NCBI RefSeq assembly: GCF_014202505.1
Contig: NZ_JACHGW010000001.1
Coordinates: 1,116,001-1,180,000 of the forward strand
Direction of reading: 5' to 3'
Length of the DNA stretch: 64,000 nucleotides
DNA from: Armatimonas rosea
GTDB lineage: Bacteria; Armatimonadota; Armatimonadia; Armatimonadales; Armatimonadaceae
Part shown: piece after piece, positions 7,702-12,543 of the stretch
How the letters are laid out: the number at the start of each line of letters is the position of its first letter
Position numbering within the stretch: position 1 is the first letter of the stretch
Notes under the pieces: model-generated
What the model was told of the DNA's origin: nothing
Database searches by the model: none
Seen by the model: only the letters and a program-made list of their open reading frames with translations
Translations under genes and position numbers: made by a program

Positions 7702-8682
7702 TTACGCGATCACGGTATCGCGGAGGCGACCACCGACCTCGCTCCGGCGTAGCTTCTGCAGGGCACCGGCCTCGATCTGGCGGGCACGCTCCCGGGAAAG
7801 ATGCAGCGCCTTGCCCACCTGCTCCAGGGTCATGGGTTGCTCCTGGTCCTCGGAGAGGCCGTAGCGCAGGGAGAGCACCTCTTTTTCACGGCTGCTCAGG
7901 TGGTCGAGTGCCTTGTTGATCTCCTCGCGGAGGGCGCGGCGGAAGATGCGCGACGACGGGCTGGTGGCGTCTTCTGCGGGAAGCAGGTCGCCCAGGCGCG
8001 TGGTCGAGTCGCCCGCGGGCGCGTCCAAGCTCATCGGCTCGGGCGTCTCGGCCTCGAGCAGCGTCTCCACCTTATCGACCGGCAGGCTGATCTCATGGGC
8101 GATCTCCTGGGGGGTGGGGACACGGTTGAAGCGCGTGGCGAGCATCTCACGGGTGCGCTTGATCTTGCCCAGGCTCTCGATAGCGTGCGAGGGCAGGCGG
8201 ATCGTGCGGCCCTGGTTCTCGACCGCGCGGCCCAGTGCCTGGCGAATCCAGTGGGTGGCGTAGGTGGAGAAGCGGAAGCCACGGCGCCAGTCGTACTTGT
8301 CCACGGCGTGGATCAGGCCCAGAGTACCTTCCTGAATCAGGTCCTCCATGGCGATCCCACGGTTCTGGTACTTCTTGGCGATACTGGTGACAAGGCGTAG
8401 GTTGGCGTTGACCAGGATCTCACGAGCACGCTCACCCTGCTTGCCCCCACGCTCGACGCAGCGCGCAAGCCAGCGCTCTTGGCGCGGCGTCAAGAGCGCC
8501 ACACTGTTCGCACCCCCACGATCGGCGACAAATGCCGTGAAAGAGAACTCCTTCATGGGATCAAAGTTCTCTTCTTCGTCAGGTGCGAGCTGCGCAAGCT
8601 CCGGCTCGGAGAGAGCCGTCGTTGGCGCCTCCGCCGTATCCAGTTTCTGCTCTTCTATGGTATCCGGCGTTAGTGTAGTCAT
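7702..8682 (-). CDS. RNA polymerase sigma-70 family factor (RpoD/SigA-like, group 1/2)
   Basis: A 326-residue sigma factor with an acidic N-terminus, a region 1.2/2 block ([16 protein letters not shown], then [11 protein letters not shown] and [14 protein letters not shown]), region 3 and region 4 ([15 protein letters not shown], and the helix-turn-helix [20 protein letters not shown]). It lacks the long region 1.1 of housekeeping RpoD, so it may be the compact primary factor or a group 2 alternative. ATG 8682 (MTTLTPD) is preferred over 8700 because a TATAAG box ends 7 bases upstream of it. Region 2.4 residues fit recognition of TANNNT -10 boxes, the type found throughout this window. Confidence 0.92.
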
Positions 8683-8689
8683 TTTTTTT

Positions 8690-8695
8690 CTTATA
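8690..8695 (-). promoter_or_regulatory. -10 box (TATAAG) for the sigma factor gene
   Basis: On the minus strand TATAAG is followed by seven A and then ATG at 8682. This supports 8682 as the start and a leaderless mRNA. The 180 bases upstream (8701-8883) hold no gene that I can see. Confidence 0.5.
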
Positions 8696-8883
8696 CCCAA
8701 TGGGGGATCTCTCGACCGCCCCGGCCCGTGCCCCGACTTGCGGGGACAAGAATGTCTTATTATTTACGGTAAAAACCGCTCGTAAGTTCCCTATCGTTTT
8801 TAACAGGAAACGCGCTAAACGGACGTTCGCCTCGGCTCTATTTGTAATAGACGTCGTCCGTGCCCTCTAGGTTTCGGGCTTCC

Positions 8884-11451
8884 CTATAAGCGTGGGTCCA
8901 CAGGTTCAGACTCCAGCGCAAGGGTCGCAAAGGCGCACTCGTGCACCCGACGTAGGGGCTCTCGGCGGACAAACCGCTCCAGGCCCTCGATTCCTAGAGA
9001 GAACTCCCGGAGTGCCAGCGAGCGCTTCCCCGAGAGACCCCGCTCACGTAGGCGGGAGAGATGGGCTGGGTCGGTGTACTCGGGACCGTAGATGATCCTT
9101 AAGTACTCCCGTCCCCGCACTTTTACCGCAGGTTGAACACGCAGAGAGGCGACGGAGTTCCGAACCGGGATAGATTCGCGTGTCTTGACCACAATTCCTT
9201 CCATGCCTTCCTCTGTTTTTTTGTCCCACCAGGCGGAGAGTTCCTTCACCTGCTCGGCGTTATCGGCCTGGACAAGCTGGTACTGTGTCGCCACAAACCG
9301 CTCCGAGACCGCCGCGAGCCGTGCAAGTGTCTGCATATGCCAGAGATGGTCCTGCTCCAGCAGCGTCCTACCCTCGACCGCCAGAATCTGAAACGGCGCG
9401 AGCTTGACTCCCGACAACCCGCTCACACTCCAGCAGTAGCGTCCGTAGGCCTCCTGGTAGGCCCCGACACAGCTCTCCCTCTCCTGCAAGCGCTGTGCCA
9501 GCTCGGGGAGATTCGCTTTTTCCGCGAGCTCCCGCGCCGTCGAGAGCGCCACCCGCCCCGCCGCTCCCACGGGGGCGTACTGCCCGCGCAGGAGCCCCTG
9601 TGCCTTGGCATTCCAAGGGAGCAGCTCGCTGTCCAGGATCACCCAGTCCGTCTTCAGCTCATCCCAGAGCCCCGTCTCCGTGAGCGCCGCGCGCAGCTCG
9701 GAGAGGAGCGCCTCGGTCTGCTCTTGTGTGTCGAAAAACGGCCGCCCGGTGCGGGTGAGGATCACGCCCGTCTCACCACTCTCGGCTCCAAAGCGCCTCT
9801 GTGCTGCCGCTTGGTCGCGACAGACAACCACCACGGCGCGGCTGCCCATGTGCTTCTCCTGGGCGATCAGCTCGGTGAAGCCATTCTTCACGAAGTAGGC
9901 GCAGGCCTCTTCCGGGCGCTCCAGATAGCCCTCGGTCTTGCTGGTCTCGACGGGGCTCATGGTCGGCGGCAGGTAGGCCAGCCAGCGCGGGTGGGCCGCA
10001 AAGCGCGAGATCACCTCCAGCGCCGCCGCCGCATTGCCGTCGTTGACCGTGATATTCCCCCCGAGGCGCGTCTCGATGATGCGCCGCCCGACAAAATCGG
10101 CAAGATTCAACCTCTCCCCAACCCCCGGGTACTCTCTGGGTGCGGGCGCTCCTCCGTCGCTGGGAAAGGGGCTTTTGGCTGCTTCGGCTTCGCGAAGGGG
10201 TTGGGGGTGCTCCGCATAGCTTGCTTTAGCCTCAACACCGACAATCGTGCGCTCGGGCCAGCGCAGAGCGGTGAGCTGGCCACCAAAGACACAGCCGGTA
10301 TCGAGGTTGATGGTGTTGCCGCGCCACTGGGCACGCTCAATCGGGGTGTGGCCGTAGATCACGTTCGTCTTGCCGGAGTAGTCGGCGGCCCAGTCGCGGC
10401 GGATCGGGAGGCCACGCTCGTCACGCTCGCCCGTGGGGTCGCCGTAGAGGCAGAACTCCCGCACGGCGCGGCTGGCGCGGCCGATCAAGTCCTCGCGAAT
10501 CCCGGCATGGGCGACGCAGAGCGCACCGTCTTCCAGCCAGAGGTGAGAGACAAGGCTCTCCACAAAGGCGATAAACCGCGCCTTAAATGCCTCCCGCTCG
10601 GCCTCGGGGAGGGCATCGATCTGCTCCAGCGACTGCTCCAGCCCGTGGTTGACCGTCACCTTCTTGCCCTCAAGCGCCCGCTTGAGCTTATCGTCGTGGT
10701 TGCCCGGGACGCACAGCGCCCGTCCCGCCGCGACCGCCTCCATCACAAAACTCGCGACCTCGACCGACTTGGGGCCCCGGTCCACGAGATCGCCCACAAA
10801 GACCAGCCGCCGGTTCTCAGGGTGCCCCCCGGCTTCGTCGTAGCCCAGCTTGCCCAGTAGCGCCTGGAGCTCGTCGTAGCAGCCGTGCACATCCCCGATA
10901 AAGTCAAAAGGCCCGTGCTCCGTGCGCCGGTCGGTCCAGAGCGGCACGCGGGCTAGCTCCGTCGCCGCAATCGCCTCCTCGCCATCGAGGTGGAAGACAT
11001 ACCGGAAGCCCTCTTTCTTGAGGAACTTCAGGCTGCGCTTGAGCTCACGGCTGTGGCGCTGGACCACGTGGGGGCCAAAATCCCGATTCGGTCGCGCCTG
11101 GTTGCGGGCGTAGCAGGTCTTCTCTGGGACATCCAGGACAATCGCCACGGGGACCGCATGATACTGATGGGCCAGGGCGAGCAAGGGCTTGCGGGCGTGC
11201 TCCTGGACATTGGTAGCATCGATCACGGTGAGCTTGCGCCGCTTGAGCCGAATCCCTGCCAGGTAGTGGAGCGCCGCGAACGCATCGCCGGTCGCCTCCA
11301 GGCTGCCCTCGTCATCACAGACAACCCCGCGCAAGTAGTCCGACGAGAGCACTTCCGTGGGCAAGAAGTGCTTGCCCGCGAAGGTACTCTTTCCGCTTCC
11401 GCTCGCGCCCACAAGGACAACGAGCGCAAAATCTGGTAGGTCTATTTGCAT
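8884..11451 (-). CDS. pnkp: Polynucleotide kinase-phosphatase-ligase (bacterial Pnkp)
   Basis: An 855-residue, three-domain RNA end-healing and sealing enzyme like Clostridium thermocellum Pnkp (about 870 residues). The kinase P-loop is GASGSGKST (15-23). The metallophosphatase has GDVHGC (186-191), GDLVDRG (220-226) and GNHD (250-253). The nucleotidyltransferase/ligase has EKHMGSR with the likely adenylated Lys533. The enzyme phosphorylates 5'-OH, removes 2',3'-cyclic or 3'-phosphate, and activates for sealing. ATG 11451 is chosen because upstream codons overlap the divergent gene. Its usual partner Hen1, a 3' 2'-O-methyltransferase, is absent from both sides. The linker at about 414-446 is Pro/Gly/Ala-rich and is encoded by a palindromic repeat. 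Confidence 0.93.
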   Translation of the reverse strand: MQIDLPDFALVVLVGASGSGKSTFAGKHFLPTEVLSSDYLRGVVCDDEGSLEATGDAFAALHYLAGIRLKRRKLTVIDATNVQEHARKPLLALAHQYHAVPVAIVLDVPEKTCYARNQARPNRDFGPHVVQRHSRELKRSLKFLKKEGFRYVFHLDGEEAIAATELARVPLWTDRRTEHGPFDFIGDVHGCYDELQALLGKLGYDEAGGHPENRRLVFVGDLVDRGPKSVEVASFVMEAVAAGRALCVPGNHDDKLKRALEGKKVTVNHGLEQSLEQIDALPEAEREAFKARFIAFVESLVSHLWLEDGALCVAHAGIREDLIGRASRAVREFCLYGDPTGERDERGLPIRRDWAADYSGKTNVIYGHTPIERAQWRGNTINLDTGCVFGGQLTALRWPERTIVGVEAKASYAEHPQPLREAEAAKSPFPSDGGAPAPREYPGVGERLNLADFVGRRIIETRLGGNITVNDGNAAAALEVISRFAAHPRWLAYLPPTMSPVETSKTEGYLERPEEACAYFVKNGFTELIAQEKHMGSRAVVVVCRDQAAAQRRFGAESGETGVILTRTGRPFFDTQEQTEALLSELRAALTETGLWDELKTDWVILDSELLPWNAKAQGLLRGQYAPVGAAGRVALSTARELAEKANLPELAQRLQERESCVGAYQEAYGRYCWSVSGLSGVKLAPFQILAVEGRTLLEQDHLWHMQTLARLAAVSERFVATQYQLVQADNAEQVKELSAWWDKKTEEGMEGIVVKTRESIPVRNSVASLRVQPAVKVRGREYLRIIYGPEYTDPAHLSRLRERGLSGKRSLALREFSLGIEGLERFVRREPLRRVHECAFATLALESEPVDPRL
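10111..10207. repeat. Intragenic copy of the G/C-rich palindromic repeat family
   Basis: CCCCAACCCCC at 10116-10126 pairs with GGGGTTGGGGG at 10197-10207, around a roughly 70-base interior with further short inverted pieces. The left edge CTCTCCCCAACCCC reappears in reverse near 39698-39715. It lies in frame in pnkp between the phosphatase and ligase domains. Confidence 0.6.
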
Positions 11452-11523
11452 AGGGGAAGTGCCATAATACCACAGACTCGCCTTTTTTTGAAACATTTTG
11501 GAAATAATTTTGTGGTTCTCGCG

Positions 11524-11529
11524 TACAAT
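11524..11529 (+). promoter_or_regulatory. -10 box (TACAAT) for the alginate-lyase-like gene
   Basis: TACAAT ends 6 bases before ATG 11536 (gap ACCTCT); no Shine-Dalgarno. The 84-base spacer also holds TATTAT, a possible minus-strand -10 for pnkp 12 bases before its ATG. Confidence 0.65.
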
Positions 11530-11535
11530 ACCTCT

Positions 11536-12543
11536 ATGTTCACCCACCCCGGAGCCCTGCACACCAAGCCCGATCTAGAGCGTCTTCGCACGCGTCTCAA
11601 CGACGAGCCCTGGAAAGGGGGCCTTCAAAAACTCAAGGAGCACCCCGCGTCGTCGAAAGACTGGCGCATTCGTGGCGGCGCGTTTCCGATCGTCTGTCGG
11701 GAGACCAAGAAGAACGTGGGCAACGACGAGCTGGCCAGCGACTCCAACGCCGCGTATCAGAATGCGCTGCTCTGGTGGCTGACGGGCGAGAAGGCGCACA
11801 GAGACAAAGCGCTCGCCATCTTGGACGCGTGGGGCGGCTCGCTCCAGAGCATCACGGGCCACGACAAAGAGCTCGCCGCCGCGCTCTATGGCTTCAAGCT
11901 GGTCAATGCCGCCGAGCTCTTGGGCCACAAGCCCTTCGCGGAGTGCCTGCGCCGCGCCTTTATTCCCGTGGTGACCAGCTTCGCGACCTTCGCCAATGGC
12001 AACTGGGACACCGCCTGCATCAAGATGCTCCTCGCCTGCGGGGTGTTTCTCGACGACAAAGCGCTCTTTGACAAGGCGGTGGCCTACTACAAAACCGGCG
12101 CGGGCAATGGGCGGCTGACCCACTACATTATCAATGAGACAGGCCAGTGCCAAGAGAGCGGGCGGGACCAGCAGCACGTCCAGCTCGGGATCGCGCATCT
12201 GGCGGAGGCGGCGGAGATTGCCTGGAACCAGGGCGTGGACCTCTACAGCGAGGGTAACTTCCGCCTGCTCAAGGGCTTTGAGTACACCGCCAAGTACAAT
12301 CTCGGCGACGAAGTCCCCTTCGAGCGCTACAAAGACAAGACCGGCAAGTACGACTGGCCGACAATCTCCGACGAGGGCCGCGGCAAGCTCCGCCCGATCT
12401 ACGAGCTGGCGCTCAATCACTTCGAGGGACGACTTGGCAAGAAAGCCCCCTACACCCGCCGCGCCGCCGAGTCCCTGCGCCCCGAAGGCGCCGCCTTCCA
12501 AGCCGACCACCCCGGCTTCGGAACCCTGCTGTTCCTACGGTAA
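11536..12543 (+). CDS. Alginate lyase family protein (PF05426-like)
   Basis: A 335-residue, mostly helical protein matching the alginate lyase superfamily (alpha/alpha toroid). Diagnostic stretches are GNWDTACIKMLLACGVFLDD, then NETGQCQESGRDQQHVQLG, AEAAEIAWNQGVDLYSE and GFEYTAKYNLG. In this family the N-E-x-G-x-x-x-E-x-x-R-D-x-x-H block carries catalytic His/Arg/Tyr-neighbouring residues. The family eliminates polyuronates, but the true substrate cannot be read from sequence. No signal peptide is present from ATG 11536, so a cytoplasmic role or a wrong start is possible. The leaderless -10 supports this start. Divergent from pnkp. Confidence 0.82.
   Translation: MFTHPGALHTKPDLERLRTRLNDEPWKGGLQKLKEHPASSKDWRIRGGAFPIVCRETKKNVGNDELASDSNAAYQNALLWWLTGEKAHRDKALAILDAWGGSLQSITGHDKELAAALYGFKLVNAAELLGHKPFAECLRRAFIPVVTSFATFANGNWDTACIKMLLACGVFLDDKALFDKAVAYYKTGAGNGRLTHYIINETGQCQESGRDQQHVQLGIAHLAEAAEIAWNQGVDLYSEGNFRLLKGFEYTAKYNLGDEVPFERYKDKTGKYDWPTISDEGRGKLRPIYELALNHFEGRLGKKAPYTRRAAESLRPEGAAFQADHPGFGTLLFLR

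Follow-up and report, generated by a model that had tools for sequence, protein, structure and literature searches.

An intact pnkp gene unlinked from an intact hen1 gene in Armatimonas rosea

Bacterial Pnkp carries kinase, phosphatase and ligase domains and reportedly needs Hen1 in order to seal. In the Pnkp/Hen1 system, the N-terminal half of Hen1 activates ligation, and the two proteins form a heterotetramer. In PMC4411300, the pnkp and hen1 genes are stated to be always in the same operon, and a search of titles and abstract openings in the literature, covering few subscription papers, returned no exception to this rule. A second described arrangement is the Pnkp1-Rnl-Hen1 system of Capnocytophaga gingivalis, in which hen1 is distant from the other gene(s) and which, according to PMC4411300, combines a T4-Pnkp-like Pnkp1 with a separate Rnl.

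Here we describe a pnkp gene in a 64,000-nucleotide stretch of the Armatimonas rosea genome, referred to in the following as the window. The genome holding it (G000; 6,325,924 bases, 19 contigs, 98.2% complete) shares with the canonical system the domain order, the full length and the catalytic residues of Pnkp, as well as a full-length Hen1 with both its Pnkp-docking and its methyltransferase half. The difference lies in gene location: whereas the canonical genes share an operon, those of G000 are on different contigs, and this arrangement is an exception to the statement in PMC4411300. The distant hen1 is a trait in common with the C. gingivalis system; the window protein itself does not belong there, as its ligase is fused and its phosphatase is of the calcineurin-like (Metallophos) type. 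The features of the window are:

8884..11451, minus strand: pnkp, polynucleotide 5'-kinase / 2',3'-phosphatase / RNA ligase (TIGR04075 and the 15-sequence alignment A1)
11026..11424, minus strand: kinase domain AAA_33, residues ~10-142 (Pfam, A1, solved Pnkp kinase 4gp6)
10342..10911, minus strand: calcineurin-like phosphatase domain, residues ~181-370 (Pfam, A1, solved Pnkp phosphatase 4j6o)
8902..10026, minus strand: ligase (adenylyltransferase) domain, residues ~476-850 (PF16542, 529 bits; 4drf/4e6n)
7702..8700, minus strand: sigma-70 factor, next downstream of pnkp (Pfam)
~11536..12543, plus strand: divergent alginate-lyase-like gene (Alginate_lyase PF05426, 54.8 bits; Pfam, start read from the sequence)
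11464..11492, minus strand: sigma-70 promoter-like site TTCAAA-17-TATTAT with TG ahead of the second hexamer (consensus match only)

The pnkp gene encodes a full-length bacterial Pnkp of 855 amino acids. Its open reading frame spans 8884..11562, and because homology begins only at residue 38 of this frame, the start was placed at the ATG at 11451. The family model TIGR04075 (bacter_Pnkp) is matched over its entire length (1-851 of 851) at 1210.6 bits (curated cut-off 750 bits), far beyond chance, and a Pfam scan gave the AAA_33, Metallophos and PNKP_ligase domains in this order. The preliminary description of this DNA had reported a Pnkp at these positions, flanked by a sigma factor and an alginate-lyase-like gene and lacking an adjacent Hen1, and all of this was confirmed: both neighbours were recovered by Pfam, no Hen1 was present among the five neighbouring proteins scanned, and the only Hen1 over the cut-off is on another contig. 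The solved bacterial Pnkp pieces 4gp6, 4j6o, 4drf, 4e6n and 3ty8 (ligase) are all matched by the protein; 4gp6, 4j6o, 4drf and 3ty8 are structures from Clostridium thermocellum. Invariant throughout A1 are K21, S22, D38, R41, R116 and R120 in the kinase, D187, H189, D221, R225, N251, H252, H315, H368 and D384 in the phosphatase and the motif I lysine K533 (in KHMG) in the ligase, which are the catalytic positions of the C. thermocellum enzyme.

Decay of Pnkp following its split from Hen1 was considered and rejected. The frame is unbroken and without stops, and private changes at otherwise invariant columns are not in excess (5, against 0-19 in the other rows). The mean distance of the ligase domain is the largest among 11 compared (0.468), by a small margin over G090 (0.465), where the pair is adjacent. 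In the tree, the protein groups with G006 and G008, members of the same family (f1), with support of 100/99, so that it was most simply inherited within the family rather than imported. Judged by its sequence, nothing sets the window Pnkp apart from other members of its known family.

Regarding the neighbours, the promoter-like site just upstream of the pnkp ATG was found once against 0.1 expected in shuffles. Apart from it, promoter scans gave two sites in the region of Hen1, with no element common to both loci. The same sigma gene adjoins Pnkp in G000, G006 and G004, and the pnkp remnant in the congener G001; it was not found beside Pnkp in G008. The idea that this sigma factor is a dedicated regulator of Pnkp was rejected on the basis of one species, because G001 keeps the sigma factor (96% identity) while its Pnkp is in remnants. 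Likewise, an MZA defence locus was set aside: the sigma factor scored 279.3 bits with the NCBIfam MzaA model (cut-off 800) and 176.5 with that of PADLOC, and RpoD models scored higher.

A profile search of the whole genome gave a single intact Hen1 over the family cut-off, at G000:C4:221172-222518 (+), matching TIGR04074 over its full length with 593.9 bits (ORF L009:8167-9525). Three further TIGR04074 matches reached about 20 bits each, far below the cut-off, and PF12623 (Hen1_L) was matched once, by the same protein (331.2 bits). Absence of Hen1 from the genome is thereby ruled out. The preliminary description had offered three options, namely a Hen1 elsewhere, a Pnkp that seals alone or a Pnkp that only heals ends; the first was borne out, and with it the other two are no longer needed. 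It had also named a Hen1 elsewhere with coordinated expression as the observation that would speak against its reading; the gene part of this is present on C4, and the reading as a whole is partly supported. This serves as a warning that a missing neighbour gene does not mean a missing partner.

The N half of this Hen1 corresponds to the solved domain 4dqz. That domain recurs in 4drf and 4e6n, two entries that additionally hold the Pnkp ligase chain matched by the window Pnkp. For the C half, the structural matches are Hen1 methyltransferase domains. The metal-binding residues E353, E356, H357 and H405 are invariant in alignment A2 (15 rows, the G014 protein being entered twice), and private changes number 2, compared with 0-10 in the other rows. 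Identity is 60% to the Hen1 of G006 and 62% to that of G004. If contigs C1 (1,694,696 bases) and C4 (866,047 bases) form one linear replicon joined end to end, the two genes are at least ~788 kb apart, the sum of the distances to the closer contig ends (567 kb for Pnkp on C1 and 221 kb for Hen1 on C4). Hen1 is flanked on one side by a sigma-factor gene followed by TPR and NAD-kinase genes, and on the other side by a PQQ-repeat gene. This sigma gene (L009:7289-8062, -) looks FliA/WhiG-like by eye and is related to a scanned sigma gene, L075:6168-6947. It carries one in-frame stop in G000, and both halves are 93-95% identical to an unbroken gene of 257 amino acids in G001; the stop could be a recent loss, a sequencing error or a case of readthrough.

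To place this arrangement, 291 Armatimonadota genomes were searched, at most 3 Pnkp and 5 Hen1 candidates being scored in each. Pnkp exceeded the cut-off in 47 and Hen1 in 45; both did so in 42, Pnkp only in 5 and Hen1 only in 3. The two genes are adjacent (gap of at most 105 bp) in 32 of the 42 pair-bearing genomes. They lie 0.6-1.9 kb apart in 3, 4.4-16.4 kb apart on the same strand in 4, and on different contigs in 3 (G000, G017 and G024). The pair is not in one operon in G000, where the genes are on different contigs, and, taking adjacency as at most 300 bp, 9 further genomes of the 42 lack adjacency as well. The different-contig cases are not merely broken operons, since G024 has 12.3 kb of contig upstream of Pnkp without Hen1 and G017 has 14.5 kb of contig downstream of Hen1, with Pnkp elsewhere. 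Altogether, the unlinked arrangement is uncommon and of modest novelty; it puts right the published claim that pnkp and hen1 are invariably in one operon.

Among the five genomes with Pnkp only, G078 is 72% complete; G008 is 85% complete, with an intact Pnkp and no Hen1 over the cut-off; G152 is 75% complete, with Pnkp at a contig edge; G172 is 91% complete, its Pnkp match beginning at position 67 and a fragment of Hen1 lying on a different contig; and G032 is 93% complete, its Pnkp match beginning at position 244 and a fragment of Hen1 adjoining. As for Hen1 only, G002 (82% complete, family f1) has no Pnkp over the cut-off, and G004 was counted here because its Pnkp lies in two frames and scores below the cut-off. 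These frames (L071:2440-4976, -; model positions 1-428 and 432-851) part in the linker between phosphatase and ligase, which may reflect a frameshift introduced in assembly or, alternatively, separate healing and sealing proteins.

Beyond the phylum, the best 80 of 538 confirmed Pnkp loci on GTDB contigs from many phyla were inspected. In 58 of these 80, Hen1 is encoded on the same strand no more than 300 bp upstream; the upstream distance is 0.3-1 kb in 6 and 1-8.2 kb in 11, and in 5 Hen1 is absent from the flank. Three of the five (L082, L083 and L099) are cut by contig ends at most 0.8 kb upstream, L134 has 5.2 kb upstream, and L124 (Saprospiraceae) is flanked by 10 kb of sequence on either side; L082 and L134 are apparently the same records as G008 and G078. 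A genome search for Hen1 was positive over the cut-off in two of the five: in the case of L083 the gene is on another contig, and in the case of L124 a partial Hen1 (model 159-461) sits at the edge of a separate contig of 3,207 bases. Several of the genes intervening between Hen1 and Pnkp in other phyla (L092, L102, L110 and others) look nucleotidyltransferase-like by eye, similar to RlaP. A single RlaP match (64.6 bits) was obtained in G000, at C1:332125-332679.

An adjacent pair is absent from all 12 genomes in the family of G000 (f1, G000 to G011). In G006, Hen1 and Pnkp share a strand and are separated by 5.4 kb; the intervening genes encode PhyH, a response-regulator cyclase and a PAS sensor kinase. 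In G004 the distance is 7.6 kb. In G001, the sole congener searched, decayed remnants of both genes occupy the two syntenic places. The Pnkp remnant sits between the sigma gene and a 42-residue alginate-lyase remnant (L076:7211-7336) and matches residues 1-91 (gapped), 507-772 and, in a different frame, 785-855; the kinase and phosphatase portion is largely missing. The Hen1 remnant, between the PQQ and sigma genes, comprises 77 residues with one internal stop. Thus, pnkp and hen1 are intact, unlinked and normal in sequence in G000, whose one examined congener has neither in working form. Because both neighbourhoods of G001 hold remnants, the two genes probably became separated before the two species diverged, and G001 lost both of them thereafter. 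This loss of two unlinked genes, although a single case in a draft genome, is the best evidence here for their joint action in G000. Distances of the Pnkp ligase domain and the Hen1 N half across 11 genomes correlate with 0.82, a value that does not single out the Pnkp-Hen1 interface, as all domain pairs correlate (0.73-0.86). A family with a broken operon, with both genes intact in one species and in remnants in its congener, constitutes a natural test of the dependence of Pnkp on Hen1.

G000 holds further RNA-repair genes. A second Pnkp-like protein of 422 amino acids on contig C3 (L010:8495-9763, -) has kinase and phosphatase domains, and a Pfam scan gave no ligase domain. It scores 415.3 bits with TIGR04075 (cut-off 750), over model positions 1-419 of 851 only, and is therefore not a member of that family. 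Such ligase-less forms (model ~1-421 only) occur in 6 of the 291 genomes among the matches listed (G000, G001, G003, G006, G008 and G017), all from the order of G000. The catalytic residues of the two domains are invariant in all six. In the tree mentioned above, whose bootstrap had not settled (correlation 0.961), the six form one clade, separated from 44 Pnkps by two branches with lengths of 1.44 and 0.85 changes per column; on this basis, a recent duplication of the window gene was rejected. Between G000 and G001 the protein is 89% identical with a dN/dS of ~0.08 (Nei-Gojobori count). Since G001 keeps it while Pnkp and Hen1 are remnants, it has a role of its own, presumably end-healing. A protein built like a heal-only enzyme, an option initially raised for the window gene, does exist at C3, but the window Pnkp itself has a ligase.

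Additionally, a cassette at C1 ~674.5-677 kb (L003:783-3188, -) encodes an RNA ligase (PF09414, 125.7 bits), an HD and kinase fusion and a weak RNA-ligase match (26.8 bits, just below the cut-off of 27). With its HD and kinase protein flanked by RNA-ligase-like genes, it resembles the HD-Pnk/Rnl cassettes (Runella slithyformis HD-Pnk), and it is separate from the window gene. Further RNA_ligase matches lie at C3:865634 (99.2 bits) and C6:141588 (at the cut-off), and two RtcB genes at C3:148818-150017 (L192) and C3:132336-133658 (L193), ~15 kb apart on the same strand. The preliminary description had advised a search for RNA-cutting toxins; this was carried out for the MazF family (PF02452), with no match at E <= 0.001 in G000, and no partner toxin is named here.

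Taking the sequence evidence together, the window Pnkp very probably works in the usual Pnkp/Hen1 repair, with Hen1 supplied in trans. Pnkp would phosphorylate the 5'-OH end of a ribotoxin-cut RNA and strip the 2',3'-phosphate. Hen1, made from the unlinked gene on C4, would dock on the Pnkp ligase domain and methylate the 3' ribose, which would license sealing. We infer that the two proteins still meet and that their chemistry is as in studied relatives. Against this stand the intact Pnkp of G008 without Hen1 over the cut-off and the Hen1 of G002 without Pnkp over the cut-off, both in incomplete genomes of the family, as well as the slightly greater divergence of the G000 ligase domain and promoter scans with no common element. 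It seems improbable that the window Pnkp is independent of Hen1 and seals alone, with Hen1 kept for another job such as methylating other RNA 3' ends. The genes are unlinked and separately transcribable, and Pnkp exceeds the cut-off without Hen1 in 5 of 47 genomes, but these five are weak evidence of a true absence of Hen1 in view of their incompleteness, contig edges and fragments, Hen1 retains its docking half, and remnants of both genes are present in G001.

The additional repair genes allow two other explanations. In one of them, the window Pnkp heals ends only and Rnl or RtcB seals, for which G000 has the standalone RNA ligases, the two RtcB and the ligase-less kinase-phosphatase; the full-length ligase domain of the window protein, with its motif lysine K533, makes this very unlikely, and the role would be better filled by the C3 protein. 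Just as unlikely is a Hen1 that partners the ligase-less kinase-phosphatase and a separate Rnl, in the manner of Pnkp1-Rnl-Hen1, rather than the window Pnkp. An unlinked hen1 with separate Rnl genes is typical of that system (PMC4411300), but Hen1 of G000 scores above the threshold set for the canonical family, its relatives in G006 and G004 are located 5-8 kb from a Pnkp, and in G001 the well-conserved ligase-less protein has outlasted both Pnkp and Hen1. Repair by Pnkp with Hen1 in trans thus remains our preferred explanation.

A bolder proposal, which we regard as rather doubtful, is that unlinking gives two separately controlled repair modes, along with a clade of end-healers feeding standalone ligases. 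If so, Pnkp or the ligase-less protein alone would provide plain healing (plus slow sealing), and methylating, immunising repair would occur only upon induction of Hen1. The ligase-less clade, seen here only in the order of G000, would then be a dedicated end-healer for standalone ligases.

Finally, a scan of viral contigs with the window Pnkp gave distant relatives only. Two of these, on contigs L163 (504 kb) and L166 (372 kb), match residues 9-855 with 21% and 23% identity, respectively.
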